From contig JANXWE010000142.1 of NCBI GenBank assembly GCA_025351325.1, forward strand, positions 1-38,434: a DNA stretch of 38,434 bases. Reading direction: 5' to 3'. The notes under the pieces are model-generated. The model was not told where the DNA came from, made no database searches, and saw nothing but the letters and a program-made list of their open reading frames with translations. Shown piece after piece: positions 20,482-38,194 of the stretch. Each line of letters opens with the position of its first letter. The first letter of the stretch is position 1. The stretch is from Fimbriiglobus sp. (GTDB taxonomy: Bacteria > Planctomycetota > Planctomycetia > Gemmatales > Gemmataceae). Position numbers and translations under genes: made by a program.

Positions 20482-20958
20482 CTATTTTTTGTCGTCGCGG
20501 ATGAGAAAGACGAGTTGTTTGGCACAAAGTCCGATTTTATCGCCTGGACGCAGTTTCGTTGGGCCGTGAATCTTGGCCCCGTTCAACAGTGTTCCATTTT
20601 TTGACGCGATATCGTGGAGTTCGCAGGCACCATCACGGTGAACCACAATGGCACAGTGACGACGTGAGACGCATTCGTCGCGGATGATCACGGAATTGTC
20701 TGGCAGTCGTCCAACGCTGTTCACGCCGACCGTCAACGCGTGAAGCTGCTCCCCATCTTGCACCCAAAAACTTCGACTCGTGCTTACGCCGAATGCTCGC
20801 GTATCTCCTTGACCGGACTCGGACTCCTCCAACCAGCCCAAATCCCCACCGAGGGTCAATTGGCCGCAACCCAATTCCATCCGCTCCCGCGCAGCTCGGA
20901 ATTCAGCTTGCCGAGGCAAACCCTCCAGGTGCACACTTTGGAAACGCAAATCGGGCAC
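20482..20958 (-). CDS. FHA-domain protein
   Basis: The 158-residue protein has a forkhead-associated domain at about residues 76-154, which binds phosphothreonine peptides. The conserved positions are visible: VGRLPDN (G83, R84), the SRRH motif at 98-101, and DIASKNGTLLNG with N121-G122. The first 70 residues are not recognisable. The start is GTG at 20958, with GAGG 7 nt upstream. Part of that ribosome site can pair in a 5-bp hairpin (ACCTC/GAGGT). FHA proteins read out Ser/Thr kinase activity, so the kinase-tubulin proteins at 24121 and 27814 are possible clients, but this is only an inference from proximity. Confidence 0.88.
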   Translation of the reverse strand: MPDLRFQSVHLEGLPRQAEFRAARERMELGCGQLTLGGDLGWLEESESGQGDTRAFGVSTSRSFWVQDGEQLHALTVGVNSVGRLPDNSVIIRDECVSRRHCAIVVHRDGACELHDIASKNGTLLNGAKIHGPTKLRPGDKIGLCAKQLVFLIRDDKK

Positions 20959-22727: not shown

Positions 22728-23429
22728 TCAAGCCGAAAGTGCTGTTTTCCATTTTTGAATACGCACAGGGTCGAGCATTCCTTCGCGGGTGCCCCCTGCG
22801 CAAACCGCACCGCGAACGGCGAACCAGTCCGGGGCTAGCGGCTTCAATTGCTTGAGATGTTCGAGCTTCAACGAACCCCCGAGCGCGATGGGAATGCCAC
22901 TCTTTTTCAAACTCGCCATGAGTTCGGTCAATTCGGCGAAGGGTAACGAATCGAGCAAGGTCGAGCCGTCTTTATTGAAGGTGTCGAAGAGCACGGCTTT
23001 GTAGCGGAACCGCCGCGCGAACTTGACGATCTCAGCCGGTGCGGGTGACTTCGCTTTCTCCCAGTCGGCATACGCCACCAGCACGACTTCCGTGCCCGTG
23101 CGAATCTGCCGCCGCGTTTCAAGCAAATCTTCGCCCCACCCGGGACTGTTACCGTAACCGGCCAAACCCCATTTCAAGAACTGAACGGGCAGTTGGAGGT
23201 GCCAATGGGCCTCGTTGAGGGCGTTGGGCGTCCATTCACCCAGAGCCGCACTCACCGGGACGGCCCCATTCACCACCGCCAGGACAGCCGCCAGGACTTC
23301 GTGGTGGGCAACGCCTAAGGGGCCATTGGACGGCTCTTTGACGTCGATGAGGTCGGCCCCGCCGGCCAACGCCACGGTGGCTTCCTCGGAGGAGCGAACG
23401 CTGATGAGTAATCGGGAGGGGGTCGTCAT
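22728..23429 (-). CDS. mfnB: (5-Formylfuran-3-yl)methyl phosphate synthase (MfnB-like)
   Basis: MfnB makes the furan ring of methanofuran from two glyceraldehyde-3-phosphate molecules. Bacterial forms occur where tetrahydromethanopterin-type C1 transfer is used, which includes planctomycetes. The 233-residue TIM-barrel protein has the family motifs LLISVRSSEEA near the start, DVKEPSNGPLG with the active-site Lys, QFLKWGLAGYG with a second Lys, and LFDTFNKDG. Near the end it has the phosphate-binding ALGGSLK and FAVRGAVC. Start ATG 23429 is fixed by the ATGA overlap with the ASCH gene; the longer frame to 23561 is rejected. Length is normal for the family. Confidence 0.85.
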   Translation of the reverse strand: MTTPSRLLISVRSSEEATVALAGGADLIDVKEPSNGPLGVAHHEVLAAVLAVVNGAVPVSAALGEWTPNALNEAHWHLQLPVQFLKWGLAGYGNSPGWGEDLLETRRQIRTGTEVVLVAYADWEKAKSPAPAEIVKFARRFRYKAVLFDTFNKDGSTLLDSLPFAELTELMASLKKSGIPIALGGSLKLEHLKQLKPLAPDWFAVRGAVCAGGTREGMLDPVRIQKWKTALSA

Positions 23430-23929
23430 GGTGCGGGAAATCCTTTTCGGGGGCCTTCGGGCGGATCGATCCAGACGACCGTCGGCAACGGTGCTTCCGC
23501 GATCACGACCTCTGGTAGAGTGTACCCCTTCACGGCGAAGAAAAAAGTATTCCCTGTCCATGGCGCAAACGGAACCAACTGCGCATTTTCAAATACGAAG
23601 CCGAACAGGCGCGGTGGGCGGAACCATTCCGCTGCGTTGCGGTGGCGTGGGCGATCGGTGGCAAATGCCTCGGGAGTGTCGTATCGAATGCAATCGACCA
23701 ACTCGGCTACGCCAAGAATACCACCCTGAAATTGCGCCAACGCTTTCAATTCCGGGGTGTCGAGGGCAGCCCAACCTTCCGGGCGAAGATCCGGAACTTT
23801 GGCGGCGTGGATTAATATCCGGTTCCGGCGCGAAACGTTCCAGGTTCGGATTTCGATGGTTTTGCGCCCGGAGACCAGTAAGGCCGCCCACGGTTGCTTG
23901 ACAGAAAGAGCATGCCAAACTTCGGTCAT
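23426..23929 (-). CDS. ASCH-domain protein coupled to mfnB
   Basis: ASCH domains share the PUA-like barrel and are thought to bind RNA or modified nucleosides; some are RNases or deaminate modified cytidines. The 167-residue protein shows the defining start ALSVKQPWAALLVSGRKTIEIRTW, with the conserved Lys and Glu of the GxKxxExR pattern, and RNRILIHAAK just after. The C-terminal half continues the barrel (LFGFVFENAQLV). Its stop overlaps the mfnB start by 4 nt, so the two are coupled. A link to methanofuran synthesis is not known for ASCH proteins. The start ATG 23929 lacks a good ribosome site (AAGG is 11 nt away). Confidence 0.82.
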   Translation of the reverse strand: MTEVWHALSVKQPWAALLVSGRKTIEIRTWNVSRRNRILIHAAKVPDLRPEGWAALDTPELKALAQFQGGILGVAELVDCIRYDTPEAFATDRPRHRNAAEWFRPPRLFGFVFENAQLVPFAPWTGNTFFFAVKGYTLPEVVIAEAPLPTVVWIDPPEGPRKGFPAP

Positions 23930-24120: not shown

Positions 24121-27100
24121 ATGGCCATCAACCCCGCAGCAATGGGTGCTCTGCCGGAGCAACTCAAGGGATACCGCCTGATCGAAAGGCTCGGTCGGGG
24201 CGGCTTCGGCGAAGTCTGGAAAGTCGAAGCGCCCGGCGGCTTCATGAAGGCGATGAAGTTCGTGTTCGGCGACCTGGACGCAACCGAAGACGAAGGCCGG
24301 GCTGCGGAACAAGAACTCAAAGCGCTTCACCGTGTTAAGACGATTCGCCACCCGTATATTTTGTCCCTCGAACGCTTCGACATCATCGACGGCCAGCTCA
24401 TCATTGTCATGGAGTTGGCCGACCGCAACCTGTGGGATCGTTTCCGCGAATGTCGGATGTCTGGCCTCGTGGGCATCCCGCGCGACGAACTGCTGCGCTA
24501 CATGCACGAAACGGCCGAAGCGCTCGACTTGATGAACACGCATTATCAAATCCAGCACCTCGACATCAAACCCCAGAATTTATTTCTGGTGTTCGATCAC
24601 GTCAAAGTCGCCGACTTCGGGCTGGCGAAAGCCTTCGAGGGTGCCCGGGCGACGGTCACGGGCGGCGTCACGCCGGTGTACGCTGGCCCCGAGACCTTCG
24701 AGGGGTATGTCACCCGCTACAGCGACCAGTACAGTCTGGCGATCGTCTACCAAGAGTTGTTGACCGGGCAGCGACCGTTCAACGGCGCCAACACGAAACA
24801 GTTGCTGCTTCAGCACCTCCGCGATGCCCCGGATGTCTCGCCGTTGCCGATGCATGATCGGCACATCATTGCACGCGGACTGAGTAAAACGCCGCACGAA
24901 CGCTGGCCGAGCTGCGCCGAGATGGTGAAGCTGCTGCTCCACGCCCCAGCCAATGCCGAAGCGAATCGCTCGGATTACGGCGCTCTGCCCCTGCCGACAT
25001 CGTTTTCGCCGAGTTTGCACTCCGCCAAAACACCGCAACCGAGCCAGCGGGATTCGGTTCACACGATGCCGGCGGCAGCGGTCCAAGAAGCGCGGAATGC
25101 GTTCGCCCTGACGTTTGGCACGAGTTCATTCCTCGATGGAACTCCCCTCCCGAACCCGCTGTCGCGTTCGGGCGGTGCCAGCACGGTTCAGAATTTCTTG
25201 CCCGGATTGGTGACGCCCAAGCTCGTCACGCAGCGGAGTATTTCCGGCCCCGCGCCGATGTTGACCCAGCAGAAGGGTTCGATCATCGAAACCGGGTTGA
25301 TGAGCGAGCTGGGAATCGCGCCGCCACCGCGTGAAGGGGACGGGGTGCTCTTCCCAGCCCTCGTGGTCGGTCTGGGTCAAACCGGGTTGGCCGTCATCCG
25401 ACGATTGCGGGAGTTCATGCGGCTGCGCTTCGGAAAAGTCTCAGCCCTTCCGAACATCCGTTTCCTCTATCTGGACACGGACGGAGAATCCATCGCCGAA
25501 GCCGGCCAAGGGGATGACCCGCTTCAGCCCCAAGAGTTGGTGCATATCAAGTTAAATCGTCCGGCCCACTACCTTCAGCGCGATGGTTTGCCACCGGTCG
25601 ATCAGTGGATGCCGCCCGGCACGCTGTATCAACTCCCGAAGAACCCTGGCCCGGCCGACGGGATTCGCGCCTTCGGGCGGTTGGCGCTCTGCGATCATTA
25701 CCGGTTCGTGTCGGCCCGCGTCCGCCAAGAAATTGAAGTGTTAATTAGCGAAGACTTACTCGACAAGACTGCCAAACAAACCGGTTTGGGCCTGCGGACG
25801 AATCAAGCCCGTGCGTACATCGTGGCCAACCTCGCCGGTGGCACCGGTGGCGGGATCTACCTCGATATGGCTTATCTCGTCCGCCACGAACTCCGGCAAG
25901 TCGGGTATCGCAAACCGGAGTCGGTGGGGATTCTACTGATGCCGCCCGCCGATAAGGCGATGCCGCGCAAAGCGTTGGCCAATACCTATGCGGCACTGAC
26001 CGAGCTGTCCCACTACGCATCGGGGGAACAGTACAAAGCGCGGTACGATCTCGCCGATTCGCCCATCGTCGACAGCCAGGCTCCGTTCGACCGGACGACG
26101 ATACTCCAATTGCCCAAAAAAGTCCGGGCGCGGACTCAGAACAAAGCGGCGGGCGCCGCGGCACGCGGACTCGATTTGGAACTCTTCACCCCGATCGGGA
26201 AAGCGACTGACTACGTGCGCTCGGTGTCACCACAAGATCCTTATTCGGGGCCAGTTGTTCAACCGATGGGACTGTATCGGCTCAGTTGGCCCCGCCCGGA
26301 AATCCTCGCGGCCATTACCAAACGCTTCGCGATGCATCTACTTCGGCGCTGGGCCGAGAAAGAAACGACCCACCTGTGTGAGCCGATCACCTCGTGGCTC
26401 ACGGATCAATGGACGAAGTACCTCCTGGCCCCGAAAGATTTGGTGCTGCGGTTCGACGCCGCCGTACGAGTCGGGCTGAGCGAAAATGCGGAAGTCGTCT
26501 TCGACGCGGTGGTGAATTCACTCAAGATCCGCACGCCGGGGGCTAGTAAACTCGACGCCATGGCGACCGTGGACGTTTTGGATCAACTCGTCAAACTCGT
26601 CGGGAAACCGGACGTGGAAGAGAGCCATTCGGCGTCGTCCATGAAGGCGTTCATCGACGTGGAAGCCAAGAAAGCCACGCTGGAAATCGAAGCGCATTTT
26701 TCGGAAATCGCGGTTTCATTCATCGAACAGCCCCAGTACCGTCTCGCGGGTGCCGAAGAGGCGTTGAACCAAGTGACAACCCGGTTGAAAGAGGCCGTCG
26801 AGGGCCTCGAAGGAGAACTCGCCAATTTGAACCGCGACGTGGGGGAATCGTACGCCCGGCTCTTCCCGCTCATCAGCGGTTTGAACGCGTCGGGCGGGTT
26901 CAGCAAGCTCGTCACGCGGAAGGGGGCCATCGCGGCCGAACTGTTCGAAATGCTGACGGCGTACCCCCGGAAGCGCTACCGGAGTTTGCTGCTCTCCACG
27001 GCCATGACTCTGTACCGCAGCCTTCTGGGGAACATCCCAGAATACTTGCGGGACGTTGCGTACTGCCGAACTCGCTTGGAAGGTTTCGCCACCACGCTCG

Positions 27101-27765
27101 ATCGGGAACGCACGGCCGATGCCAACTCCGAATCTGGGGCGTTCATCTTGCCCGCCGGTTGCGACGATTTGGATTCGGCCGCAGACCAGTTCATTGCCGC
27201 GATGCCACCCGAAGAGATTTTGGAATTCGACCGGGGGCTTCAAGCTCAAGTCGAGAAGAAATACCAAAAGCTCGTCAACATCTGTCTCAGTCCGGATCGG
27301 AGTTCGGAGTTCCCCCCGTTGTTGACCAACGCGGCGCGGACTTATTTGGATCTGCGGCTGGAAAAGGCCAACCCGGCCGAGGCGTTGAATCGCTACCGCG
27401 GTTCGGGGCACGACTGTGAAGCCGTGCTGACCAAAATGTTCGACGAGGCGTTGCCGACCTTGATCAGCTCAGGAATGAAGGCACCGCAACTCGAAGCGAC
27501 ACTGCTCGCCGTGCCGGAGGGGGCCATCGGCGACCAACTGCGCCGACTCGCTTCAGACGCGAACCCAGGTATCGAGTTCATCCCGGCTACTTTGACGGAC
27601 GGCATCGTGATGCTCCGTGAATTTCCCCGGATGCCACTCGCCGATCTGCCACAGCTCGCCGAAGAAGGCCAGCTGGCCTACCAAGCCTTGCGGGCGGCGG
27701 AGCAATCCCCGCATGCCCGGGTGGATGTGAATTGGCGAACACCGATGAAGCCTACTTTGAAATGA
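24121..27765 (+). CDS. Ser/Thr protein kinase fused to a tubulin-like domain (paralogue 1)
   Basis: The 1214-residue protein has three parts. Residues 17-281 are a protein kinase: LGRGGFGEVW loop (24-33), K46 in AMK, E65, catalytic HLDIKPQN (146-153, D148), DFG 165-167 and GPE 189-191. A Ser/Pro-rich linker follows. Residues about 410-780 form a tubulin/FtsZ-superfamily domain of the Tubulin_2/FtsZl1 type: FPALVVGLGQTG (411-422) opens it, and the nucleotide-binding glycine loop AGGTGGG is at 572-578. The last 430 residues are helical, with likely coiled coil at 850-920. No membrane segment or signal is seen, so it is cytoplasmic. The kinase may phosphorylate the tubulin part or its partners; this is inference. 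Start ATG 24121 has no clear ribosome site. Confidence 0.88.
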   Translation: MAINPAAMGALPEQLKGYRLIERLGRGGFGEVWKVEAPGGFMKAMKFVFGDLDATEDEGRAAEQELKALHRVKTIRHPYILSLERFDIIDGQLIIVMELADRNLWDRFRECRMSGLVGIPRDELLRYMHETAEALDLMNTHYQIQHLDIKPQNLFLVFDHVKVADFGLAKAFEGARATVTGGVTPVYAGPETFEGYVTRYSDQYSLAIVYQELLTGQRPFNGANTKQLLLQHLRDAPDVSPLPMHDRHIIARGLSKTPHERWPSCAEMVKLLLHAPANAEANRSDYGALPLPTSFSPSLHSAKTPQPSQRDSVHTMPAAAVQEARNAFALTFGTSSFLDGTPLPNPLSRSGGASTVQNFLPGLVTPKLVTQRSISGPAPMLTQQKGSIIETGLMSELGIAPPPREGDGVLFPALVVGLGQTGLAVIRRLREFMRLRFGKVSALPNIRFLYLDTDGESIAEAGQGDDPLQPQELVHIKLNRPAHYLQRDGLPPVDQWMPPGTLYQLPKNPGPADGIRAFGRLALCDHYRFVSARVRQEIEVLISEDLLDKTAKQTGLGLRTNQARAYIVANLAGGTGGGIYLDMAYLVRHELRQVGYRKPESVGILLMPPADKAMPRKALANTYAALTELSHYASGEQYKARYDLADSPIVDSQAPFDRTTILQLPKKVRARTQNKAAGAAARGLDLELFTPIGKATDYVRSVSPQDPYSGPVVQPMGLYRLSWPRPEILAAITKRFAMHLLRRWAEKETTHLCEPITSWLTDQWTKYLLAPKDLVLRFDAAVRVGLSENAEVVFDAVVNSLKIRTPGASKLDAMATVDVLDQLVKLVGKPDVEESHSASSMKAFIDVEAKKATLEIEAHFSEIAVSFIEQPQYRLAGAEEALNQVTTRLKEAVEGLEGELANLNRDVGESYARLFPLISGLNASGGFSKLVTRKGAIAAELFEMLTAYPRKRYRSLLLSTAMTLYRSLLGNIPEYLRDVAYCRTRLEGFATTLDRERTADANSESGAFILPAGCDDLDSAADQFIAAMPPEEILEFDRGLQAQVEKKYQKLVNICLSPDRSSEFPPLLTNAARTYLDLRLEKANPAEALNRYRGSGHDCEAVLTKMFDEALPTLISSGMKAPQLEATLLAVPEGAIGDQLRRLASDANPGIEFIPATLTDGIVMLREFPRMPLADLPQLAEEGQLAYQALRAAEQSPHARVDVNWRTPMKPTLK

Positions 27766-27813
27766 TGTTTCCGCCCCGGATTGTGTCGACTCGTACCCTC
27801 AGGATCCCCGTCC

Positions 27814-30800
27814 ATGTCCGTCTCATTCCAAACCGGCGCCGAACCGATCCCCGGCTACAAATTCATGGATCGATTGGGTAGTGGCGGCTTCGGCGAGGTC
27901 TGGCGCTGCGAAGCCCCCGGTGGAATTTTCAAAGCCGCCAAAGTGATCTACGGCGATCTGCGCAACCAAGACAACGATTCCTACCGCTTCGCCGAGCAAG
28001 AGTTGAAGGCCCTCAAACGGGTCAAGACCGTCCGGCACCCGTATCTGCTGACCCTCGACCGCTACGACATCGTCGAAGGTCGGCTCGTCATCATCATGGA
28101 ACTCGCGGATTGCAATCTTTGGGAACGCTTCCGCGAACATCGTAAAGCCGGCCTGCCCGGTATCCCGCGCGAAGAATTGCTCCAGTACATGAGCGAGACG
28201 GCCGAAGTCCTCGACCTCATGAACGACAAGCACCAGTTGCAGCACCTCGACATCAAACCGCAGAACTTGTTCCTGCTGTACAACCACGTGAAAGTGGCCG
28301 ACTTCGGCCAAGTGAAAGATCTCGAAGGCTTGGTGGCGTCCGTCACCGGTGGCATCACCCCTGTCTATGCGGCCCCCGAAACGTTCGATGGCTTTGTGTC
28401 GCGCTTCTGCGATCAGTACAGCTTGGCTTGCGTTTATCAAGAACTGTTGACCGGGCACCGCCCCTTCGACGGCACCAGCATGCAGCAACTTTTGATGCAG
28501 CACTTGCAAGCGCCACCGAACTTATTGCCCTCGCCAGCCGGGGAACGCTTCGCTCTGGCCAAGGCACTTTCCAAGAAGCCCGACGACCGATTCCCGAATG
28601 TGTCGAGCATGGTGAAAGCCATTCGAGACGGAGCCATCGTCCGGGTGGCCGTGCCGGCGAAACTGTTGGTCGGCGCCACCGATTCCAAATCGGACGACTA
28701 CGGTTCCGGCGTGTCCGCATTCGAGACGTCGGCGCTGCCGCATAACCCGTTCGATGTCGCCCAAGGGACTTCGCTCCCGCACGGAATGGACGGCGGTTGC
28801 GGCATCGAACTCACCCACACGCCGAATCCGCGCGGCGTTATCGAAACGTCGTCGCCACCGGAACGGCCGGCTCCTCCCGAACAAAAAGGCCCCGGCCCGA
28901 TCCGGCCCGCCATTGTCATCGGTCTCGGGTTCACCGGCCTCCAGATCGTTCAGCAACTCCGGCACGCACTCGAAGAACGTTTCGGTTCGATGGACAATGT
29001 GCCCGCCCTCCGTTTGATCGGAATCGACAGCGACCACGAAGCCATCGAACTCGCGGCCTCGCAGGTCGCCGACGGGCATTCTCCGTTACCCAAAGAAGAC
29101 CTCATCGCCGCACGGCTCAACCGTTCCGCGCATTATTTGAAGCCCCGGAACAACGGCCGCATGGTCACCGAAGGCTGGTTCGATCCGCAAGTGTTCTACA
29201 AGATGACGCGGCAACCCACGACCATGGGGCTACGTTGCCTGGGTCGGCTCGCCTTCTGCGATCACTACCGCACCATCCTCAACAAGATCCAACTCGAACT
29301 CGAAGCCTGCGTCGATCCGGCCGCGATCAGCGAAACGCTGGCCCGCACCGGCCTCGACAAGCGGACGAACCGGCCGCGCATTTACATTGTCGCTAATCTC
29401 GGCGGCGGTACGGGCAGCGGCATGTTCATCGATCTCGCTTACGCTGTCCGCGCCCGGTTGAAACGCATCGGCTACCACGCTCCCGATGTCACGGGCCTGC
29501 TCCTAACACCGCCCGACAATCCCACCACTCATGTGGATGTCACCGCGTTGGCCAACACCTTTGCCGCGCTGACGGAATTGAACCACTTCACCGACCCCGA
29601 GACGGTCTTCGAAGCGGCTTACGACGATCGTCACGGGGTCATCCGCGATGCCGAGTCGCCGTTCACACGAGTCTTCATCATCCCCGGACTCGAACCCGAC
29701 GCCACCCCCACGACACCTTCGGGCAGTGGTTCGGGCGTTCGCACACTCGGTTCTTTGAGCAAACCTGGATCCGGCCGCCTTTCGGGGGCTTCCCGTGGAA
29801 CGGGATCGGTTCGCACCCCGGAACAACGCACCGGTGGCCAGCTCGACGCATTGCTCGCTGCCTCGGATTTTTTGAGGCTCGATCTCCTCTCGAACCTCGG
29901 GCGGGCCTGTGATCAAAGTCGTGCTGTGCCGCTCCATCCGACTGGCAACGAGATTCATACATTCGGCCTGACGCGATTCGGTTGGCCCCGGATGGAAGTG
30001 GTCTCGCGGACGGCCCGCATCATGGCCCCGGTGCTGTTCGGGAATTGGGTGCACCCCGATCCGAAACACCTCCGCGCCGTCATTCCCCAGTGGGCCGAGC
30101 AGCAATGGCACCGCTTCGGGCTGGGTAGCGAGCACCTTTCCAAAACACTCCGAGACCGAGCCGACACTACGGCAGGTCGCAGTATCGACGATTTCATTCA
30201 AAGAGTTTGTGGCCCGCTGACCCCGAAAGGTTGGTTGGCCAAGCCGCCGGAAACCGAGAAGTTGGCGGAAGCACTCGACCAATTCACGCAGTTGCTCGGA
30301 ACCCCGCGTGAAAGTCCGAATCGGCAATTGTCCGACGTGGAAGAAGTCTTGATCACCGCCGCCGCCGAGATCGTGAAGGGATCGAACGACGAACTCAGTG
30401 GAATGCTTCCCGCCCTGATGGACACGCCCGATTTCCGCTTCGCGGGAACCGAAGAAGCGGTTCGCCACCTGGTGCACGGTGTCGCCACGGCGCGAGAAGT
30501 CTTGCAAAAACAAATCGCCGCACTCGAAATCACGGCCAACCTGTCGTACGAACGAGTCGTGGCGAGCATCAACCCGCAACGGGGTATTAAAAAATCGACG
30601 GCCCAAGAGATCGGAGCCGCGGTGCGCGAGTTTCCGACGGCGTGGTACCAAGTCCTCGTCGGCCGGCAGGTACTGGTGATCTACCGCCACCTCCACGACG
30701 TGTTGCAAATGCGCCTGAACGAAGTGAGTGCCTGCCGGGTGAAGGCCCAAGAGAACCTCATGCAGTTGGTCGCCGAGTCGGAATCACTCGCCCCGCCCGT

Positions 30801-31422
30801 CCGCCCCGACGACCTGCTGCCGGTCGGCTGCGCGAGCATTGAAGAAGCCTCGCAACGCTTTTTGAAGGTGCTCACCGACGACGATCTCGTCGAACTCGAG
30901 CAGCGTGTCCAGCACGACATCCTCAAAGAGTTCGGGGGACTTTACGAAGCGTGTATGAATTCCGCCGGTTCCGAGCGATTGCTCCGCATCCTCCGCAACG
31001 CCACGAGGGGCTACCTGAACGACCGTCTCGGGGAAGTGGACTTCGCCGGCATGTTGAAGCAGAAGTACCCTTCCAAAGCCGCGTTCGCACAAGTGATCGC
31101 GAAGAGCTATGCGGACGCCGAACCGAAACTCGTGTCCGGTGGATTGTGGGCACGCTCGGAAGTGGCGATTTTCGGTGCCCCTCAAGGGGAGAGTGGTGCG
31201 GCAATCACACTCCAAACCCAACCGATGTTGCCGACGAATTCCAGCGTGGTGGCGTCGGCCGACGAAGTGCTCTTTTACCGGGAATACTCGAACGTGCCAC
31301 TGGCGGCGCTCCCGCAACTCGGGCCGGTTTGGTCGGCCGCGTACCACGGTGCCGCCGACTTGATTCAAACCAGCCCGCACGTGCGGCTCGACGTTACGCA
31401 GTGGCGCCATGTCGACGGTTGA
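27814..31422 (+). CDS. Ser/Thr protein kinase fused to a tubulin-like domain (paralogue 2)
   Basis: The 1202-residue protein repeats the layout of its upstream neighbour, 48 nt away. The kinase has LGSGGFGEVW (21-30), K43, HLDIKPQN (144-151, D146), DFG 163-165 and an APE motif (YAAPETF). The tubulin-like domain begins RPAIVIGLGFTG and has a perfect signature loop, GGGTGSG, at 530-536, preceded by RIYIVANL. A Gly/Ser/Thr-rich insertion lies at about 630-675 and is absent from paralogue 1, where only a short basic stretch is found. The helical C-terminus aligns with that of paralogue 1. AGGA lies 9 nt before ATG 27814. Both proteins are probably cotranscribed and may form mixed polymers, as some tubulins do. 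Confidence 0.88.
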   Translation: MSVSFQTGAEPIPGYKFMDRLGSGGFGEVWRCEAPGGIFKAAKVIYGDLRNQDNDSYRFAEQELKALKRVKTVRHPYLLTLDRYDIVEGRLVIIMELADCNLWERFREHRKAGLPGIPREELLQYMSETAEVLDLMNDKHQLQHLDIKPQNLFLLYNHVKVADFGQVKDLEGLVASVTGGITPVYAAPETFDGFVSRFCDQYSLACVYQELLTGHRPFDGTSMQQLLMQHLQAPPNLLPSPAGERFALAKALSKKPDDRFPNVSSMVKAIRDGAIVRVAVPAKLLVGATDSKSDDYGSGVSAFETSALPHNPFDVAQGTSLPHGMDGGCGIELTHTPNPRGVIETSSPPERPAPPEQKGPGPIRPAIVIGLGFTGLQIVQQLRHALEERFGSMDNVPALRLIGIDSDHEAIELAASQVADGHSPLPKEDLIAARLNRSAHYLKPRNNGRMVTEGWFDPQVFYKMTRQPTTMGLRCLGRLAFCDHYRTILNKIQLELEACVDPAAISETLARTGLDKRTNRPRIYIVANLGGGTGSGMFIDLAYAVRARLKRIGYHAPDVTGLLLTPPDNPTTHVDVTALANTFAALTELNHFTDPETVFEAAYDDRHGVIRDAESPFTRVFIIPGLEPDATPTTPSGSGSGVRTLGSLSKPGSGRLSGASRGTGSVRTPEQRTGGQLDALLAASDFLRLDLLSNLGRACDQSRAVPLHPTGNEIHTFGLTRFGWPRMEVVSRTARIMAPVLFGNWVHPDPKHLRAVIPQWAEQQWHRFGLGSEHLSKTLRDRADTTAGRSIDDFIQRVCGPLTPKGWLAKPPETEKLAEALDQFTQLLGTPRESPNRQLSDVEEVLITAAAEIVKGSNDELSGMLPALMDTPDFRFAGTEEAVRHLVHGVATAREVLQKQIAALEITANLSYERVVASINPQRGIKKSTAQEIGAAVREFPTAWYQVLVGRQVLVIYRHLHDVLQMRLNEVSACRVKAQENLMQLVAESESLAPPVRPDDLLPVGCASIEEASQRFLKVLTDDDLVELEQRVQHDILKEFGGLYEACMNSAGSERLLRILRNATRGYLNDRLGEVDFAGMLKQKYPSKAAFAQVIAKSYADAEPKLVSGGLWARSEVAIFGAPQGESGAAITLQTQPMLPTNSSVVASADEVLFYREYSNVPLAALPQLGPVWSAAYHGAADLIQTSPHVRLDVTQWRHVDG

Positions 31423-31431
31423 ACGGGCGGC

Positions 31432-32799
31432 TCAGTCGTGTCGCAACGCTTCGATGGGATCGAGCTTGGCGGCCCGCCAGGCCGGATACAGTCCGAACAC
31501 GACGCCAACGATCACCGACACGCCCACGGAGAGAGCCATCGGTTGCCAACTGAGTTGGGCCGGGAGGTTGGTCTCGAAAAAGAGACGGGAGAGCGGCGGT
31601 AAGCCGAACACGAGGATGACTCCGAACGTCAGCCCCGCCAGTCCCCCGACGGTGGTCTGCACGACCGCTTCGACCAGGAATTGGATAATGATGTCGCGTT
31701 GCTTGGCCCCGAGTGCCCGGCGGATACCGATCTCGCGGGTCCGCTCCGTCACGGTGGCCAGCATGATGTTCATGATGCCGATGCCACCGACGAAAAGGGA
31801 AATCGAAGCAATCAGTACGAGCAGCGAAGTAAACCGGGCCTGGGCCCGCTCCGCTTCTTCGAGGCGATCGAGCGGCACCGACACGGCCCAATCCTCGCGG
31901 AGGTGGTCCTCCTTCAGCATCCCCTTGATGGCATTGCCGACGGCGCGGACTTTCTCGCGTCCTTCCGACGTTTCAAAATCGGCGTCGACCGTCAGCGTCA
32001 CCTGCGACACTTCCACTCTCTCCCCGCCACGCGACCCGGACGTGCGGATGACGACCGTCGAACCGACGCGAACCTTGGCCGTATCGAATGAAATGTACAC
32101 GTCGTTGTTATAGTCCTCGGCCGACTGGCTCCCACCGGTACCGCCGGTCGGCATCCGGTCGATCAGGACGCCCACGACGCGATACTCTTGTTTTTGAATC
32201 ACCACCGACTTCCCCATGGGATCTTCAAACGGGAAGAGCTTGTCGGCCAACCCGGCACCGAGTACGCAGTGGTTCAATTTGCGGAAGTTGTCCTCGTCGT
32301 TCAGAAACCGCCCGCTGCTGAGGGTGAGTTTGTTCACCTGCGCGTAATCTTCGGTGGTGGCGACGAGCCGGCCGTTCGACATGCGATCCAAGTAGCGAAC
32401 TTCTGTCGGGAAGACGCGCATGGGCACCATTTTGGAAATCGTACCGCCAAAAGTGCCCATCCTTGAGAGATCGGCCACTTTCAGCCCGTAACTGGCCACG
32501 AATGAGCGGCTGGCCGTGGCCCCTTCGTCTGGCGGCTTCACGCTGCGCACCACGATGTTCGTCGCGCCTTGCCGCTTGATGTCTTCCAGAGCGTCTTGCA
32601 TCGAACCTTTGCCGAAGGCCATGAGTGCGATCACCGCCGACGTGCCGATGATGATGCCGAGCACCGACAGAAACGCCCGCAACTTGTGCAGCCACAAACT
32701 GCGGATCGCGAGCACGAAGCTCCGCCGCACCTTATTCAGGCCTTCGAAACCGGTCGCCGCGGCGAGCGGGGGGACGGGGGGAATGTCGCGGATGTCCAT
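31432..32799 (-). CDS. MacB-type ABC transporter permease
   Basis: The 455-residue inner-membrane protein is the permease of a tripartite exporter. It has an N-terminal helix (about 39-62, [20 protein letters not shown]), a periplasmic MacB core domain (63-320) and three C-terminal FtsX-type helices. These include [19 protein letters not shown] and the conserved [13 protein letters not shown] coupling loop; the protein ends DPIEALRHD. In MacB the ATPase is fused to the permease; here it is a separate gene just upstream (3-nt gap), as in LolCDE and many bacterial MacB-like systems. It is the last gene of the operon and ends 9 bp from the convergent kinase-tubulin gene. Cargo cannot be told; antibiotics, peptides or lipoproteins are all exported by such systems. 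Confidence 0.9.
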
Positions 32800-32802
32800 C
32801 GG

Positions 32803-33510
32803 TCACCGGAACCCAAGTGGTTTGTCATTTCGAATGTCCGATTCGACCATTCCATCCCGCAGTCGGACGACTCGCCGCGACCATGCGGCGATGTCGTTCT
32901 CGTGCGTCACCATGATGATGGTCTTCCCGGCCTTGTTCAGCTCGGTGAGCATCTCCATGATCTCGACGCTGGTGCGGCTGTCGAGGTTTCCCGTCGGTTC
33001 GTCGGCGAGGATCAACTGCGGATCGTTGACCAGCGCCCTGGCAATGGCTACCCGTTGTTGCTGCCCCCCGGAGAGTTGCAAGGGTCGGTGGTCGAGCCGC
33101 GTCCCCAGCCCGACCATCTCGGCGAGGGCCACGCAGCGATCCTTCGTGCGGGCATCGAGTGGAACTCCCTGGTACACGAGTGGCAGTTCGATGTTCTCCA
33201 CGACCGTGTACTGCGGGAGCAAGTTGTACGCCTGGAAAATGAAGCCGAGGTAGGTGCTCCTGACGTCCGACAACTGATTGTCGGTCATGTGGGCGACGTC
33301 GCGGTCGCGCAAATAGTAGTTGCCCGCGGTCGGCCGGTCGAGGCAGCCCAAAATGTTCATCAGGGTCGATTTGCCCGAACCCGACGGCCCCATGAGCGAC
33401 ACGAAGTCACCCTCCTCGAAGGACAAGTCCAGCCCTTTGAGGACGTTGACGGTCACGTCGCCCATGTAGTAGTTTTTGATGAGGTCTTGGACTTCGACGA
33501 TCGCAGCCAT
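32803..33510 (-). CDS. MacB/LolD-type ABC transporter ATPase
   Basis: The 235-residue protein powers the exporter. It has Walker [10 protein letters not shown] at 41-49, the Q loop FIFQAYNLL, the signature [15 protein letters not shown], Walker [13 protein letters not shown] with the catalytic Glu, and the switch His in IIMVTHEND. All motifs are intact. The sequence is of the MacB/LolD/FtsE branch, which drives mechanotransmission rather than pore translocation. Its ATG overlaps the stop of the membrane fusion protein gene by one base (TAATG), so it is coupled to it. The permease gene starts 3 nt after its stop. Confidence 0.95.
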
Positions 33511-35588
33511 TACTTTTTCGGGGCTTGGCCCGCCCCCCCGGATTTCGATTTGTCGCCGCCGGACTTACCTTTGCTGTTACCGCGTCCGGACGGGTCGCCT
33601 TCATCGCGGGTCTTGGCTTTGTCGCCGATGATGGCCTTCGGATTCAGCACGATCACATCGCCCTCTTTGAGGCCTTCCTTCACTTCCACTTTCTTGTCGT
33701 TGAACAGGCCCAAAACAATATCGCGTTCAACGGCTTGGCCCTCTTGCAACAAGAAGATCTTGCGCTTCGGCCCCGATTCGGCGCCGCCTACCACGGCCTG
33801 GATCGGCACCGTGAGCACTTTCTGCTCGGCTGGGTCGACTTGGATCGTTACTTCGGCGCTCATATCGGGCTTCAAGCCGGCTAACGATCTCCGTGCTCGT
33901 TCTTGATCATTCTCGAAATCGTCGTCGTCTTGACCGGCCGAGCCTTCGCGGCGAACCCCGGTGATCTGTACGAGCGTTTGGTAGAGTTTCACATCACTCG
34001 ACATCCAGTCGGCCATCGAGGCCACGGCAGCGACGGTACGAACACGGGCGATGTAGGTGCGATCCGGGAAGGCGTCGATCCGCACGGTGGCCCGCATCCC
34101 CTTGTTGGCGACGTAATATTCCTGGTCGTGTGCCACTTCGATAACGGCACTTTGGTATGAGTCGGATTGACCCAATATCCGACCGAGCAAATTCGGTTGA
34201 GCCAGCAAACCGATCCTCGAAGCGACGAACGCCCCGGTCGCTTTGCGGTCGTCCCCTTTGATGCGCGAGACGAGTGCCTCGTGAACCTTGACGTTCACTT
34301 GCAAGCGGCTGAGATCCGGAATTCGGAGGAGTTTCTGGCCTTCTTTGACCTGGGCACCGACTGCGATGAGGCCCTCGTTCGAGTTGCCGAAGCGGCTGGG
34401 TTCTTTGTAGTAGACCACCATGCCCGTTTGCGGGGAGACGATCTTGCACGCGAACAGTTGCTCTTTGATCTCGCGGAGTTTATCGAGTTCTTGCTGGAGT
34501 ACGGAGTTGGTCGTTTCGACTTCCGATTCCATTTGGATGAGTTTCGCCCGCGCTTGCAGAATCGCCTGCTCGAAGCCCGCACGGGCCACGTCCACTTTGC
34601 TGCTGAGGTCGGTCACTTCGCGCGTCCGAGTGAAGTTCTCCAGGGCGTACTTTTCGGCCGAGAGCTTGCCCAACGAGTCGTTCGCACTCTCGAGTTTGGA
34701 CCGCTCCACTTTGGCTTGGCTGGGCGTCAGGTAGCCGAGTTTCACGGAACGTTCGGCCCAAGAACTGCGATCGCGGTAGGCTTCGAGATCGGATTCCGCC
34801 AGCTTCAGCCGTCCGGAGACGTCGTCAAATTTCATCCGGTACTCGCCCTTCTCCACCAACGTGAACGGGGCGCTGACCAGGGCACCGATCGGATCGAGGA
34901 TGGTGTCGCGGCGGACGCCGAGAAACTTTTCGTGGTCGAGTTCGGCGACTCGCAGCGATGCGAACTTTGCGGCCTTGTCGGAATCGTTGATCTTCAACTG
35001 GATCGCCAGTTCTTCCTTGGCTTTTACCCAGGCCGAGGTCGCTTTGGAAACGACGATCCCTTGCGCCTGCTCTTGATCCTTCAAATTGGAATCGTCGAGA
35101 TCCATCAACGGCTGGCCCTTCGAGACCATGGTGCCGTCGTCGATCACCCACTTGATGGTACTAGCGAACGTTCCCCGGCTACCGGCTTTGACCCGGCAGA
35201 CGACATCCCGGTTGTCGGTCGATTCGAGCGTGCCCCGCTCGACCACGGTGACTGGCAGGTATTCTGCTTGCACGGTGTGCGGTAGCAAATCGGGACGGGC
35301 CGTGGCGAACAGCCCCCCGAAGTTGGGGGACAGAAAGAAGACCGCAGCACTGGCGGCACCGACGAAGAACAGCGTGCCGAGTGCCATGAGCCAGAAGAAC
35401 TTACGGGAACGCCGCTTTTGGGCGTTATCGGGAGTTGCTCGGAGCGGGGAGGACGATGGGTTCGAACTCCCGGCTGGCACGCGGCCCGATTGGGAGAGGT
35501 GCTGGGGCGGGGAGCCGCTCGGGTCCGACGGGGTTAGCGTCAAGACTTCCGGATCGTGGAGCGGGGCCGGGTGCAGTTGCGGAGTCAT
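33510..35588 (-). CDS. Membrane fusion protein (HlyD/MacA-like) of the tripartite exporter
   Basis: This 692-residue protein links the inner-membrane pump to the outer-membrane channel. After a Pro/Ser-rich cytoplasmic stretch (1-58), a basic KRRSRKFF leads into one transmembrane helix (64-87). A lipoyl half (ADDGTMVSKGQPLMDLDD-like, about 145-160) is followed by a long coiled-coil hairpin (170-390) and the second lipoyl half (FACKIVSPQTGMVVYY). Beta-barrel and membrane-proximal domains complete it. A Gly/Ser/Lys-rich tail ends it. It is longer than typical MacA (about 370). The start ATG 35588 (GAGG 11 nt upstream) puts the first 55 codons inside the 3' end of the preceding gene in another frame. 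A later GTG start is possible but has no ribosome site. Confidence 0.85.
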   Translation of the reverse strand: MTPQLHPAPLHDPEVLTLTPSDPSGSPPQHLSQSGRVPAGSSNPSSSPLRATPDNAQKRRSRKFFWLMALGTLFFVGAASAAVFFLSPNFGGLFATARPDLLPHTVQAEYLPVTVVERGTLESTDNRDVVCRVKAGSRGTFASTIKWVIDDGTMVSKGQPLMDLDDSNLKDQEQAQGIVVSKATSAWVKAKEELAIQLKINDSDKAAKFASLRVAELDHEKFLGVRRDTILDPIGALVSAPFTLVEKGEYRMKFDDVSGRLKLAESDLEAYRDRSSWAERSVKLGYLTPSQAKVERSKLESANDSLGKLSAEKYALENFTRTREVTDLSSKVDVARAGFEQAILQARAKLIQMESEVETTNSVLQQELDKLREIKEQLFACKIVSPQTGMVVYYKEPSRFGNSNEGLIAVGAQVKEGQKLLRIPDLSRLQVNVKVHEALVSRIKGDDRKATGAFVASRIGLLAQPNLLGRILGQSDSYQSAVIEVAHDQEYYVANKGMRATVRIDAFPDRTYIARVRTVAAVASMADWMSSDVKLYQTLVQITGVRREGSAGQDDDDFENDQERARRSLAGLKPDMSAEVTIQVDPAEQKVLTVPIQAVVGGAESGPKRKIFLLQEGQAVERDIVLGLFNDKKVEVKEGLKEGDVIVLNPKAIIGDKAKTRDEGDPSGRGNSKGKSGGDKSKSGGAGQAPKK

Positions 35589-38082
35589 CGGGCCATAATC
35601 CTCGGGAATCCAACGGGAGCAATTCGAGGTCGAGGTACAGTTCCATTCTAGCGGTGAGGTAATTCACCCACGTCGTCGAAAGATCATTTTGCGCTTGAAC
35701 CAGTGCGCCTTGGGCTTCGAGTAGCTGTTGCGTTAAAGCGGCGACGTTACCGGCGGTGTCTTGCGTTTTGGGGTCGGGCGGGGCGAGGAAAGTACTGCGG
35801 GCGTTGTCCACTTGAGAATACGCTAACTCCACCGCTCTCTGTTGTACCAAAAAGGTTTGATAAAGCTGGCGGAGTGCCCGGAGGTCGACCCGCGCATCCG
35901 TCACAATGTTATCTTCGAACGCTTGCAAGTTCCGCCGCTGGCGCTGATACGAGATCAGCGCGGCCCGGTACAAGTTTCGTTCCGCCCGCCTCACGAACGG
36001 CGGTTCGATCCGCATGGTCACCTGATGCAGCACCCGACTCGCCGAGAAGTTCAGACCGTCATTTCCGCCAAACGGCGAGTTCGCTGTTAGATCATACCGC
36101 ACATCGAACACACCTTGCAGAGCGTTCACCCGAATGGCAATTTGCCGCCAAGCGTCCACCACTTGAGCGCGGGCGTTCATCAGGTCGAGGCGGTTGTTCA
36201 GCGCCACCTGGGCAATTTTGAGATACGCTTCATCCAGTGAGATTTCCATGAGATTCGTATCGTCCACGAGCAACTGCGGCACCGCCGGCCACTCCCCCCG
36301 GATACCGTCGAGACGCTGGTTGCGGGCTTGGATGGCCACGAGTAACCCGGCTTCCACGACGAACCGGAATGCCACCGCCTGCTCGACGACGCGCTTCTCG
36401 GCGGGCGCCCGCATCCACGGTTGGGTTTCGTACCGCCGCAGGGCCAACTCGAAGTTGATCCGATCGAACTCGGCTTCGATGCGGCTCAACTTCAGCAGTT
36501 CCGCCTCGGATTCCGGCAGGCGTTTCGATTGGCGTTCCGCTTTCGCGTCCAGCAATTTGCGGCGTTGCTCCAACAGTTCCGACGTGCGTTTCGCCAAATC
36601 ATCGGCCGGTGCGGCTTTGAGATCGGTGGCCAGTTTCGGGTAATCCTTGGCGAGTTGCGTCCCTTTGACCAACTTCGATTCGGTGAGCTGTTTCACCCAG
36701 CGTTCCCGAAGTCCGATCACCGGCTCTTTTGGGTCGAATTGACCCGCCGCGAGTTCGAGTTCCCGCAGTTGGTCGTACACCTCCTCGAAGCGCTTCAGTT
36801 GCATCCGGATCGGTTTGAGTGGGGTGTCGTCCAGTTCCAGTTGCACCGTGGCGGGAATGCCGAGTTGCAGCTTGAAGTTGTCGATCCCGTCGACGTATTG
36901 CTGGGTTCGAGTCAACACCAGTGCCCGGCTCTGCAAGAGTCGCTGCTCGACCCGCACCACTTGCAATTCGGGCACCCCGCCGCCTTCTTTCAGATTCTCG
37001 AACAGTTTGAGGAACTGCTCCACGCTGGTGATGTTCTTTTTCTCGTTGGCCAGGATCGCCGCCCGCAACAGCGTCGGCAGATACCCGGCCGGGTTCGAGG
37101 TGAGGTTGGCCCCGATACCGCGTCCGAGGTTCTGCGAAAGGCCCTGCAAGCCGTAGGGGTTGTTCGTGTAGTTGCCGTTGCCGGCGATGGCGACGTAGAA
37201 GTTCGACCGGAAACGGGCATACGAGCGCACCGCGTAGAGCATGGTGCGTTCGGCCTGCGTGAGTGCTTCCAACGTCACAGCCAGTCCACCGCCCCGCAAG
37301 AGCGGCTGGACGAGGGCCAAGCCCAACGTCGAGACGCTGATGGTCGGCTTGCCACCGCTGAGGTCGATGACGACCTGATTCGCCAGCCGCACGAGCAGTT
37401 CGGCCCCGGTGGCGAATTTCCGGGTGAATCCGGCTTCCGTCGAAACTTTCCACCGGTTGCCCGCATCGGGTCGGTCGACCCCCGCATATTCGCGGATGAT
37501 CTGTTCGGACGCGAACGCCTGGGCCGAGAATTGGAACCGTTCCAGCGACACCGGCAACGCGGCGAGGTACAAGTCTTCGCGGCGATCCTGGAATTCCCGA
37601 CTGTTGAAGATCGCCAATTCGATGGCTTGATCGAGCTTCAACCGGTACGCCTTCTGTTCCGATTTGAGTGCCACCGCTGTCGGATCGACCGCAGGTTCCA
37701 CGACCGCTGCGGTAGTAACCTCCGGTTGCGCTTCGGCCCGGTTCTGGGCATCCCAGGCGATGATTTCGTTCATGTAGCCGTCGCCCTCAACCCGGGCGAT
37801 GCCGGCACGGCCGGGCCGCTGCGGGTTCGGCGAGAGCATCCGGGCGTACTCGTCGTCCGGCGGCATCGGCGGCCGATCCGGCGAGGTCGGGTCGGCGAAG
37901 CGCGACCGTTCATCCGGGTAGACGTGCCAATTTTCGATGGCGGCATTCGGAACGACGTTCTTCTGGGTCAGAATCCCGGACACGTCGCGGTCGGCCCGCT
38001 GGCGATACCTCTCACGGGAGCACCCCGTGCCGAGAGCCAAAAGGGCGACCGTGATGCTGAAAATGAAGACGGAACCACGCAT
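35425..38082 (-). CDS. Large TolC-like outer-membrane factor of the exporter
   Basis: The first gene of the operon encodes an outer-membrane efflux protein, 885 residues against about 430-480 in typical TolC. The N-terminus is a signal sequence (MRGSVFIFSITVALLALGTG) with Cys-21 in an imperfect lipobox, so it may be lipidated. Two OEP-type repeats are recognisable: LKLDQAIELAIFNSREFQDRREDLYLAAL early, and LDEAYLKIAQVALNNRLDLMNARAQVVDAW late. About 250 residues separate them, including a Lys/Glu-rich helical insertion (roughly 440-560). A Pro-rich tail (35425-35588) is shared in another frame with the next gene. ATG 38082 is chosen over an upstream GTG at 38091; GGGTG is close before it. Confidence 0.82.
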   Translation of the reverse strand: MRGSVFIFSITVALLALGTGCSRERYRQRADRDVSGILTQKNVVPNAAIENWHVYPDERSRFADPTSPDRPPMPPDDEYARMLSPNPQRPGRAGIARVEGDGYMNEIIAWDAQNRAEAQPEVTTAAVVEPAVDPTAVALKSEQKAYRLKLDQAIELAIFNSREFQDRREDLYLAALPVSLERFQFSAQAFASEQIIREYAGVDRPDAGNRWKVSTEAGFTRKFATGAELLVRLANQVVIDLSGGKPTISVSTLGLALVQPLLRGGGLAVTLEALTQAERTMLYAVRSYARFRSNFYVAIAGNGNYTNNPYGLQGLSQNLGRGIGANLTSNPAGYLPTLLRAAILANEKKNITSVEQFLKLFENLKEGGGVPELQVVRVEQRLLQSRALVLTRTQQYVDGIDNFKLQLGIPATVQLELDDTPLKPIRMQLKRFEEVYDQLRELELAAGQFDPKEPVIGLRERWVKQLTESKLVKGTQLAKDYPKLATDLKAAPADDLAKRTSELLEQRRKLLDAKAERQSKRLPESEAELLKLSRIEAEFDRINFELALRRYETQPWMRAPAEKRVVEQAVAFRFVVEAGLLVAIQARNQRLDGIRGEWPAVPQLLVDDTNLMEISLDEAYLKIAQVALNNRLDLMNARAQVVDAWRQIAIRVNALQGVFDVRYDLTANSPFGGNDGLNFSASRVLHQVTMRIEPPFVRRAERNLYRAALISYQRQRRNLQAFEDNIVTDARVDLRALRQLYQTFLVQQRAVELAYSQVDNARSTFLAPPDPKTQDTAGNVAALTQQLLEAQGALVQAQNDLSTTWVNYLTARMELYLDLELLPLDSRGLWPDDSATAPGPAPRSGSLDANPVGPERLPAPAPLPIGPRASREFEPIVLPAPSNSR

Positions 38083-38194
38083 GGTGGGCACCCGAGACGA
38101 AGCGAGCGCGGTACATGCCGCACAATCGTTATCGGCCGCAGGGTTTGCCCATCTTGAACCGGAATCGGTCGTCTGTCGACGACCCTATGACGAT

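Follow-up and report, generated by a model that had tools for sequence, protein, structure and literature searches.

Tandem protein kinase-tubulin fusion genes in a Fimbriiglobus genome and a predicted tubulin fold split by a coiled-coil insert

Planctomycetes divide without FtsZ. In the genome of a Fimbriiglobus species, two adjacent genes, here called A and B, each join a Ser/Thr protein kinase to a domain of the tubulin/FtsZ superfamily, and the locus raises the question of what such a pair does in the cell. The window, by which we mean the whole stretch of 38,434 nucleotides that was analyzed, is one contig (C320) of a 5.1-Mb genome in 382 contigs.

The fusion itself has been known since 2010, when Makarova and Koonin described the FtsZl1 family, with four Planctomycetes members that carry an N-terminal protein kinase (PMC2875224). 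Neither T6-H7 nor a tubulin-like C-terminal domain was identifiable to those authors, who proposed membrane remodeling as the function of the family on the basis of vWA, GTPase, and OmpA operon partners. A kinase-tubulin fusion is also documented elsewhere (PMC9871819), and Gemmata massiliana has been noted as encoding FtsZl1 (PMC4672568). In the literature, we found no experimental work, biochemistry, or localization on the fusion. The 2010 description holds neither the set of three paralogues considered below (A, B, and a third gene, C) nor the loop deletion of C. We found no report of either, or of a fold completed around the coiled coil, in a search whose coverage left out most subscription journals. 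Thus, the three-gene set, the position of the insert, and the altered loop of C appear to be new. For cell organization in FtsZ-less Planctomycetes, a conserved set of proteins with a kinase and a complete tubulin fold would be a concrete target, and this value holds although the distribution of the genes argues against a simple substitute for FtsZ.

Two adjacent kinase-tubulin fusions

Both open reading frames were confirmed in tandem on the + strand of the window, at 24121 to 27765 (A) and 27814 to 31422 (B). They are separated by 48 bp, and their products are 34% identical along the full length, which bears out the description of A and B as tandem paralogues in the first-pass annotation. 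In both proteins, a PknB-like Ser/Thr kinase is followed by a Pro/Ser/Thr-rich linker and then by a Tubulin_2 (FtsZl1) domain. The closest named matches are labeled Fimbriiglobus, and wider ones come from Gemmata, Limnoglobus, Zavarzinella, and other Gemmataceae. The genes and their N-terminal parts are as follows.

24070, + strand: in-frame TTG upstream of the gene A ATG
24121..27765, + strand: gene A, kinase-tubulin fusion of 1214 aa, ATG at 24121; clade A in the tree
24172..24945, + strand: Ser/Thr kinase domain of A, residues 18-275, with a non-RD HLD catalytic loop (Pfam, motif alignment)
24973..25344, + strand: Pro/Ser/Thr-rich linker of A, residues ~285-408, poorly conserved (composition, conservation)
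27814..31422, + strand: gene B, kinase-tubulin fusion of 1202 aa, ATG at 27814; clade B in the tree
27856..28632, + strand: Ser/Thr kinase domain of B, residues 15-273, PknB fold (Pfam, motifs, model)
28639..28851, + strand: predicted disordered linker of B, residues 276-346, pLDDT < 50 (B model)

A Pfam search matched both proteins to Pkinase and to Tubulin_2, each far above the curated cutoff, so the joining of a kinase to a tubulin-family domain, twice, stands as first read. The matches to Pkinase (PF00069; E = 2e-31 for A and 5e-27 for B) are far beyond chance. The kinases had been called motif complete, and we found every motif in both: the glycine-rich loop, the Lys, HLD..K..N with the catalytic Asp, DFG, and APE/GPE. 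These motifs are intact in nearly all of the fusions, where HLD replaces HRD; the arginine of RD kinases was not found in A, in B, or in nearly all of the others. A model of the B kinase aligns with PknB (5u94) with a Z score of 29.2 and an rmsd of 2.0 over 249 residues at 25% identity. Thus, A and B have the fold and the catalytic residues in common with PknB-type bacterial kinases but differ from them in having HLD rather than HRD and in carrying a tubulin-family domain instead of PASTA domains.

The kinase is the best-conserved part of the fusion proteins. Within clades, identity is 67 to 74% for the kinase, 45 to 55% for the tubulin core, 26 to 38% for the C-terminal parts, and 18 to 27% for the linker. 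At the sequence level, the C-terminal parts appear too variable for partners to be named from them. The tether of the kinase is rich in P and S/T and is predicted from the models to be loose; the linker of A is probably disordered, judging by the corresponding region in the model of B.

There are 56 matches to the A/B-type kinase domain in the same genome. The closest kinase outside the trio of A, B, and C belongs to a protein encoded on another contig (G000:C173:6330-8951, L200), which has two kinase domains and ends in a PilZ domain; its first kinase is 51% identical to the A kinase. In a divergent relative from the sister family (L098:6899-10339, G039:C59), neither the kinase motifs nor the glycine loop of the tubulin domain has survived, and by its sequence this protein would be a pseudo-kinase joined to a pseudo-tubulin.

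The predicted fold of the tubulin domain

The Tubulin_2 (PF13809) matches span residues 414 to 741 of A (E = 1e-39, 137 bits) and 367 to 623 of B (E = 5e-36, 125 bits), against a Pfam cutoff of 27 bits. Both proteins have the traits of FtsZl1/Tubulin_2: a GGGTG(S/T)G-type loop, a coiled coil, and an alpha-helical C-terminal part. Canonical FtsZ (PF00091) scored 15.4 bits against B, below its cutoff of 33, and left A unmatched. Because a comparison with an E. coli FtsZ profile aligned only 49 columns, the C-terminal domain was recognized from the model instead. When the tubulin/C-terminal profile was searched against the sequences of solved structures, the matches were at chance level and mostly helical, and a viral structure library yielded phage tubulin-like proteins and nothing closer. 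The elements of the two domains are as follows.

25348..26352, + strand: tubulin GTPase domain of A through S7-H9, residues 410-744 (Pfam, model, structure alignments)
25834..25854, + strand: T4 glycine loop of A, AGGTGGG, residues 572-578 (alignment, model)
26368..27483, + strand: helical insert of A with a long coiled-coil hairpin, residues ~750-1121, at the H9/S8 junction (model)
27496..27702, + strand: rest of the tubulin activation domain of A (S8-H10-S9-S10-H11), residues ~1126-1194 (model, alignment)
27709..27735, + strand: conserved C-terminal motif of A, PHxRxDxxW, residues 1197-1205 (sequence alignment)
28906..30051, + strand: tubulin GTPase domain of B through S7-H9, residues ~365-746 (Pfam, model)
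29401..29421, + strand: T4 glycine loop of B, GGGTGSG, residues 530-536 (alignment)
30061..31143, + strand: helical/coiled-coil insert of B, residues ~750-1110 (B model)
31159..31365, + strand: rest of the tubulin activation domain of B, residues ~1116-1184 (B model)

We modeled A from residue 382 to its end with AF2 and 82 homologues (construct number equals protein residue minus 381), and the mean pLDDT was 93.3. The best VIA-align match was CetZ (3zid_B; Z = 27.1, rmsd 3.4, 299 of 342 residues), in an alignment that covers construct residues 29 to 813; other tubulins and FtsZ came next (Z = 22 to 24), and the top Foldseek matches were tubulins. With element names taken from our reading of the DSSP string and backed by the aligned ranges, the model runs in construct numbering through S1-H1-S2 to S4 (183-189), the glycine loop, H4 (194-212), S5, H5, and S6, and on to S7 (331-341) and H9 (344-363). 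About 370 helical residues follow, among them one helix of 50 residues and another of 64, and the model ends with E745-750, H754-766, E772-776, E780-786, and H800-811, which is the tubulin order S8-H10-S9-S10-H11. B was modeled at almost full length (pLDDT 86.8) with the same order of elements; its GTPase domain includes a disordered insert at 633 to 676.

According to these models, A and B each have a complete tubulin fold, and the coiled-coil hairpin is inserted within the activation domain. The search for a tubulin fold around residues 410 to 780, whose absence would have counted against the first-pass annotation, returned one by AF2, Foldseek, and VIA-align. The glycine loops lie between S4 and H4, the position of tubulin T4, which agrees with their proposed placement at a nucleotide site. 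The same annotation had about 430 helical residues following the tubulin domain. A helical stretch of about 370 residues is there, but it lies inside the predicted fold and not in a separate tail, and the last ~70 to 90 residues, taken for the end of that tail, would instead complete the activation domain with S8, H10, S9, S10, and H11.

The likeness to known structures is one of fold: the entire tubulin fold of CetZ, tubulin, and FtsZ is present in the A model (Z = 22 to 27 over 290 to 346 residues), with the glycine loop in the same place. In contrast to those structures, with which identity is 10 to 15%, A has the ~370-residue insert between H9 and S8, A and B carry a kinase on a flexible linker, and their T7 acid is only a candidate. 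In the alignment, the T3, T4, and T7-H8 regions are conserved in A and B, and D697 forms a conserved motif near T7 with R700. Of 52 A and B proteins, 45 have D or E at the D697 position; unfused relatives mostly have neither, and we tentatively regard D697 as the candidate catalytic T7 acid. BtubA/B is likewise a bacterial tubulin-family pair (Z = 22.5 to BtubABC), but A and B are of the FtsZl1 type and bear kinases, and many genomes have B but no A. Compared with the FtsZl1 description (PMC2875224), A and B belong to the same HMM family and likewise have an FtsZ-like domain followed by a coiled coil and then an alpha-helical C-terminal part, whereas our models show a complete fold to which the coiled coil is internal. 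If FtsZl1 proteins generally have an activation domain split by an insert, this would settle the point left from 2010, and the proteins could still assemble in a tubulin-like manner.

Paralogues and gene neighborhoods

Tubulin_2 was present in 45 of 59 relatives but, in a phylum-wide sample of 199 genomes, in only 9. Within this sample, kinase fusions were confined to the class of the window, and the proteins of other classes were unfused. We gathered 112 Tubulin_2 ORFs for comparison, and a tree built by a quick method, with SH-aLRT support only, grouped C (31 rows), A (18 rows), and the remaining B-type proteins (34 rows, with moderate internal support), A and the B type being sisters. Because AB-type and C-type genes also occur in the order's second family, the duplication into A and B came after the separation of AB from C. 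Of the 37 family genomes, 18 bear A, and 16 of these have a single copy each of A, B, and C; two or three B-type copies are present in some genomes. All three paralogues are typical of Gemmataceae. The order of the tandem is also conserved, with A immediately upstream of B in 12 genomes; in others, both are kept though separated.

The C gene of this genome is on contig C233. Every one of the 26 Gemmataceae C proteins has a glycine loop with one residue missing (for example, GGS-SG), whereas the loop is full length in the five from the sister family. The tubulin core of C is the best conserved of the three paralogues, at 55% within the clade, and C may therefore be a nucleotide-defective yet functional subunit. 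On the same contig, an ORF that overlaps the end of the C gene (G000:C233:4905-8429, L043) fuses sigma-70 (ECF-type) regions to WD40 repeats.

Two genes upstream of A have conserved synteny by neighborhood comparison.

22728..23561, - strand: 4-HFC-P synthase (MfnB-like) gene
23426..23929, - strand: ASCH-domain gene, divergent from A

In many relatives, the ASCH and MfnB-like genes lie upstream of and divergent from A or a single AB/B gene. Directly downstream of B, on the same strand, scpA (PF02616) is found in eight genomes, and it follows A in a ninth. Our genome has its scpA unlinked, on another contig, and the place after B is occupied by an efflux operon. Three genomes from another family carry a ParA-type gene upstream of their fusions. 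The conserved linkage of scpA to B, with parA near related fusions, is a weak hint of a role in chromosome organization or in the cell cycle, and not in division of the FtsZ type. The genomes share these links through common descent, which leaves few independent events, and the conservation could come from slow rearrangement rather than from function.

Possible functions of the pair

The explanation that we tentatively favor is that A and B form GTP-regulated assemblies that concentrate and switch the tethered kinase. GTP binding would make the tubulin domains of A and B oligomerize, probably head to tail, and the oligomers would bring the tethered kinases together. So concentrated, the kinases could phosphorylate one another, the linkers, and nearby client proteins until GTP turnover took the assembly apart, and the pair would be a kinase scaffold timed by GTP. 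Projecting from the assembly, the coiled-coil hairpin would bind partners, and C, with one residue missing from its glycine loop, may serve in Gemmataceae as a nucleotide-defective co-subunit or cap. For A and B, it is GTP binding, assembly, and kinase control that we infer.

Nearly as likely is a nucleotide-sensing kinase that forms no polymer, in which the tubulin domain would regulate the kinase as a GTP/GDP switch or as a dimerization module. That the kinase is by far the best-conserved part fits such a protein, as does the large insert that breaks the activation domain; the activation domain takes part in the longitudinal contacts of tubulins. Because C has lost a loop residue and yet keeps a tubulin domain 55% identical within its clade, a nonpolymerizing role would exist at least for C. 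However, A and B conserve T3, T4, and T7-H8, which suits GTP turnover coupled to assembly, and they retain a complete predicted tubulin fold. In another reading, A and B would be an obligate alpha/beta-like heteropolymer, which the tandem order in 12 genomes, the presence of B in 17 of the 18 genomes bearing A, and a partial correlation of 0.51 between A and B distances in a mirror-tree style test would favor. As a general rule, however, this form of the alpha/beta-type comparison raised in the first-pass annotation is not supported: 13 of the 37 family genomes (several of them incomplete) have a B-type gene without A, the correlation of A with C is no weaker (0.66), and the pair is split in several genomes. 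We therefore consider it improbable. We also give a low probability to a three-part cytoplasmic system of Gemmataceae for chromosome organization (ScpA/SMC) or the cell cycle, with A and B as GTP-dependent, kinase-decorated filaments and C as their nucleotide-defective cap or regulator; if true, this would be a bacterial filament that acts as its own kinase.

A cytoskeletal or membrane-remodeling machine with the kinase as its regulator, which the first-pass annotation had put forward for this pair, would accord with membership in Tubulin_2/FtsZl1, with a complete tubulin fold plus a coiled-coil arm, and with the published proposal for the family, but the gene neighborhoods make it unlikely. 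Five unfused planctomycete loci have a vWA-type gene, and two of the five belong to Gemmataceae genomes in which fusions are present as well (two genes above the Pfam cutoff, one marginal, one closely related to the marginal one, and one by motif only). A similarity search with relatives of these five proteins found none at 73 fused loci, so that the fused genes, unlike their unfused relatives, lack a linked vWA gene; nor did any of the 20 window ORFs have a vWA Pfam match. No membrane protein is a conserved partner beside the fusions in the neighborhoods of relatives, and the MacB efflux operon of the window is not a conserved neighbor. Replacement of FtsZ in cell division, the least probable of these readings, would fit a genome in which, as expected, we found no PF00091 FtsZ. 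However, PF00091 is equally absent from all 59 relatives, apart from one weak match in G004 that lies inside its own Tubulin_2 fusion, and these relatives include two ~100% complete genomes without a Tubulin_2 gene (G017 and G032). Together with the occurrence of Tubulin_2 in so few genomes across the phylum, this distribution led us to reject FtsZ replacement, and it does not support the implied tie between the fusions and the missing FtsZ. A search of the same genome for MreB gave five weak matches.

Two Gemmataceae loci with an unfused Tubulin_2 gene beside a vWA-type gene (L110:3049-16403 and L111:1-12980) come from genomes that also have fusions, and the former includes an HSP70-like protein. 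Within the window, MacB-type permease, ABC ATPase, HlyD-like, and outer-membrane efflux genes stand in a row at 31432 to 38091 (- strand), convergent with B, and an FHA-domain gene lies ~3 kb upstream of A at 20482 to 20958 (- strand). We rejected this operon, this FHA gene, and a DUF6798 gene as partners, as none of them is beside the fusions in relatives. FHA-domain genes do adjoin outgroup kinase-tubulin fusions at three loci (L096:6063-7268, an FHA-EAL gene; L097:9987-11084; and L183:6801-7922), which suggests a phosphothreonine reader as a partner of those fusions.
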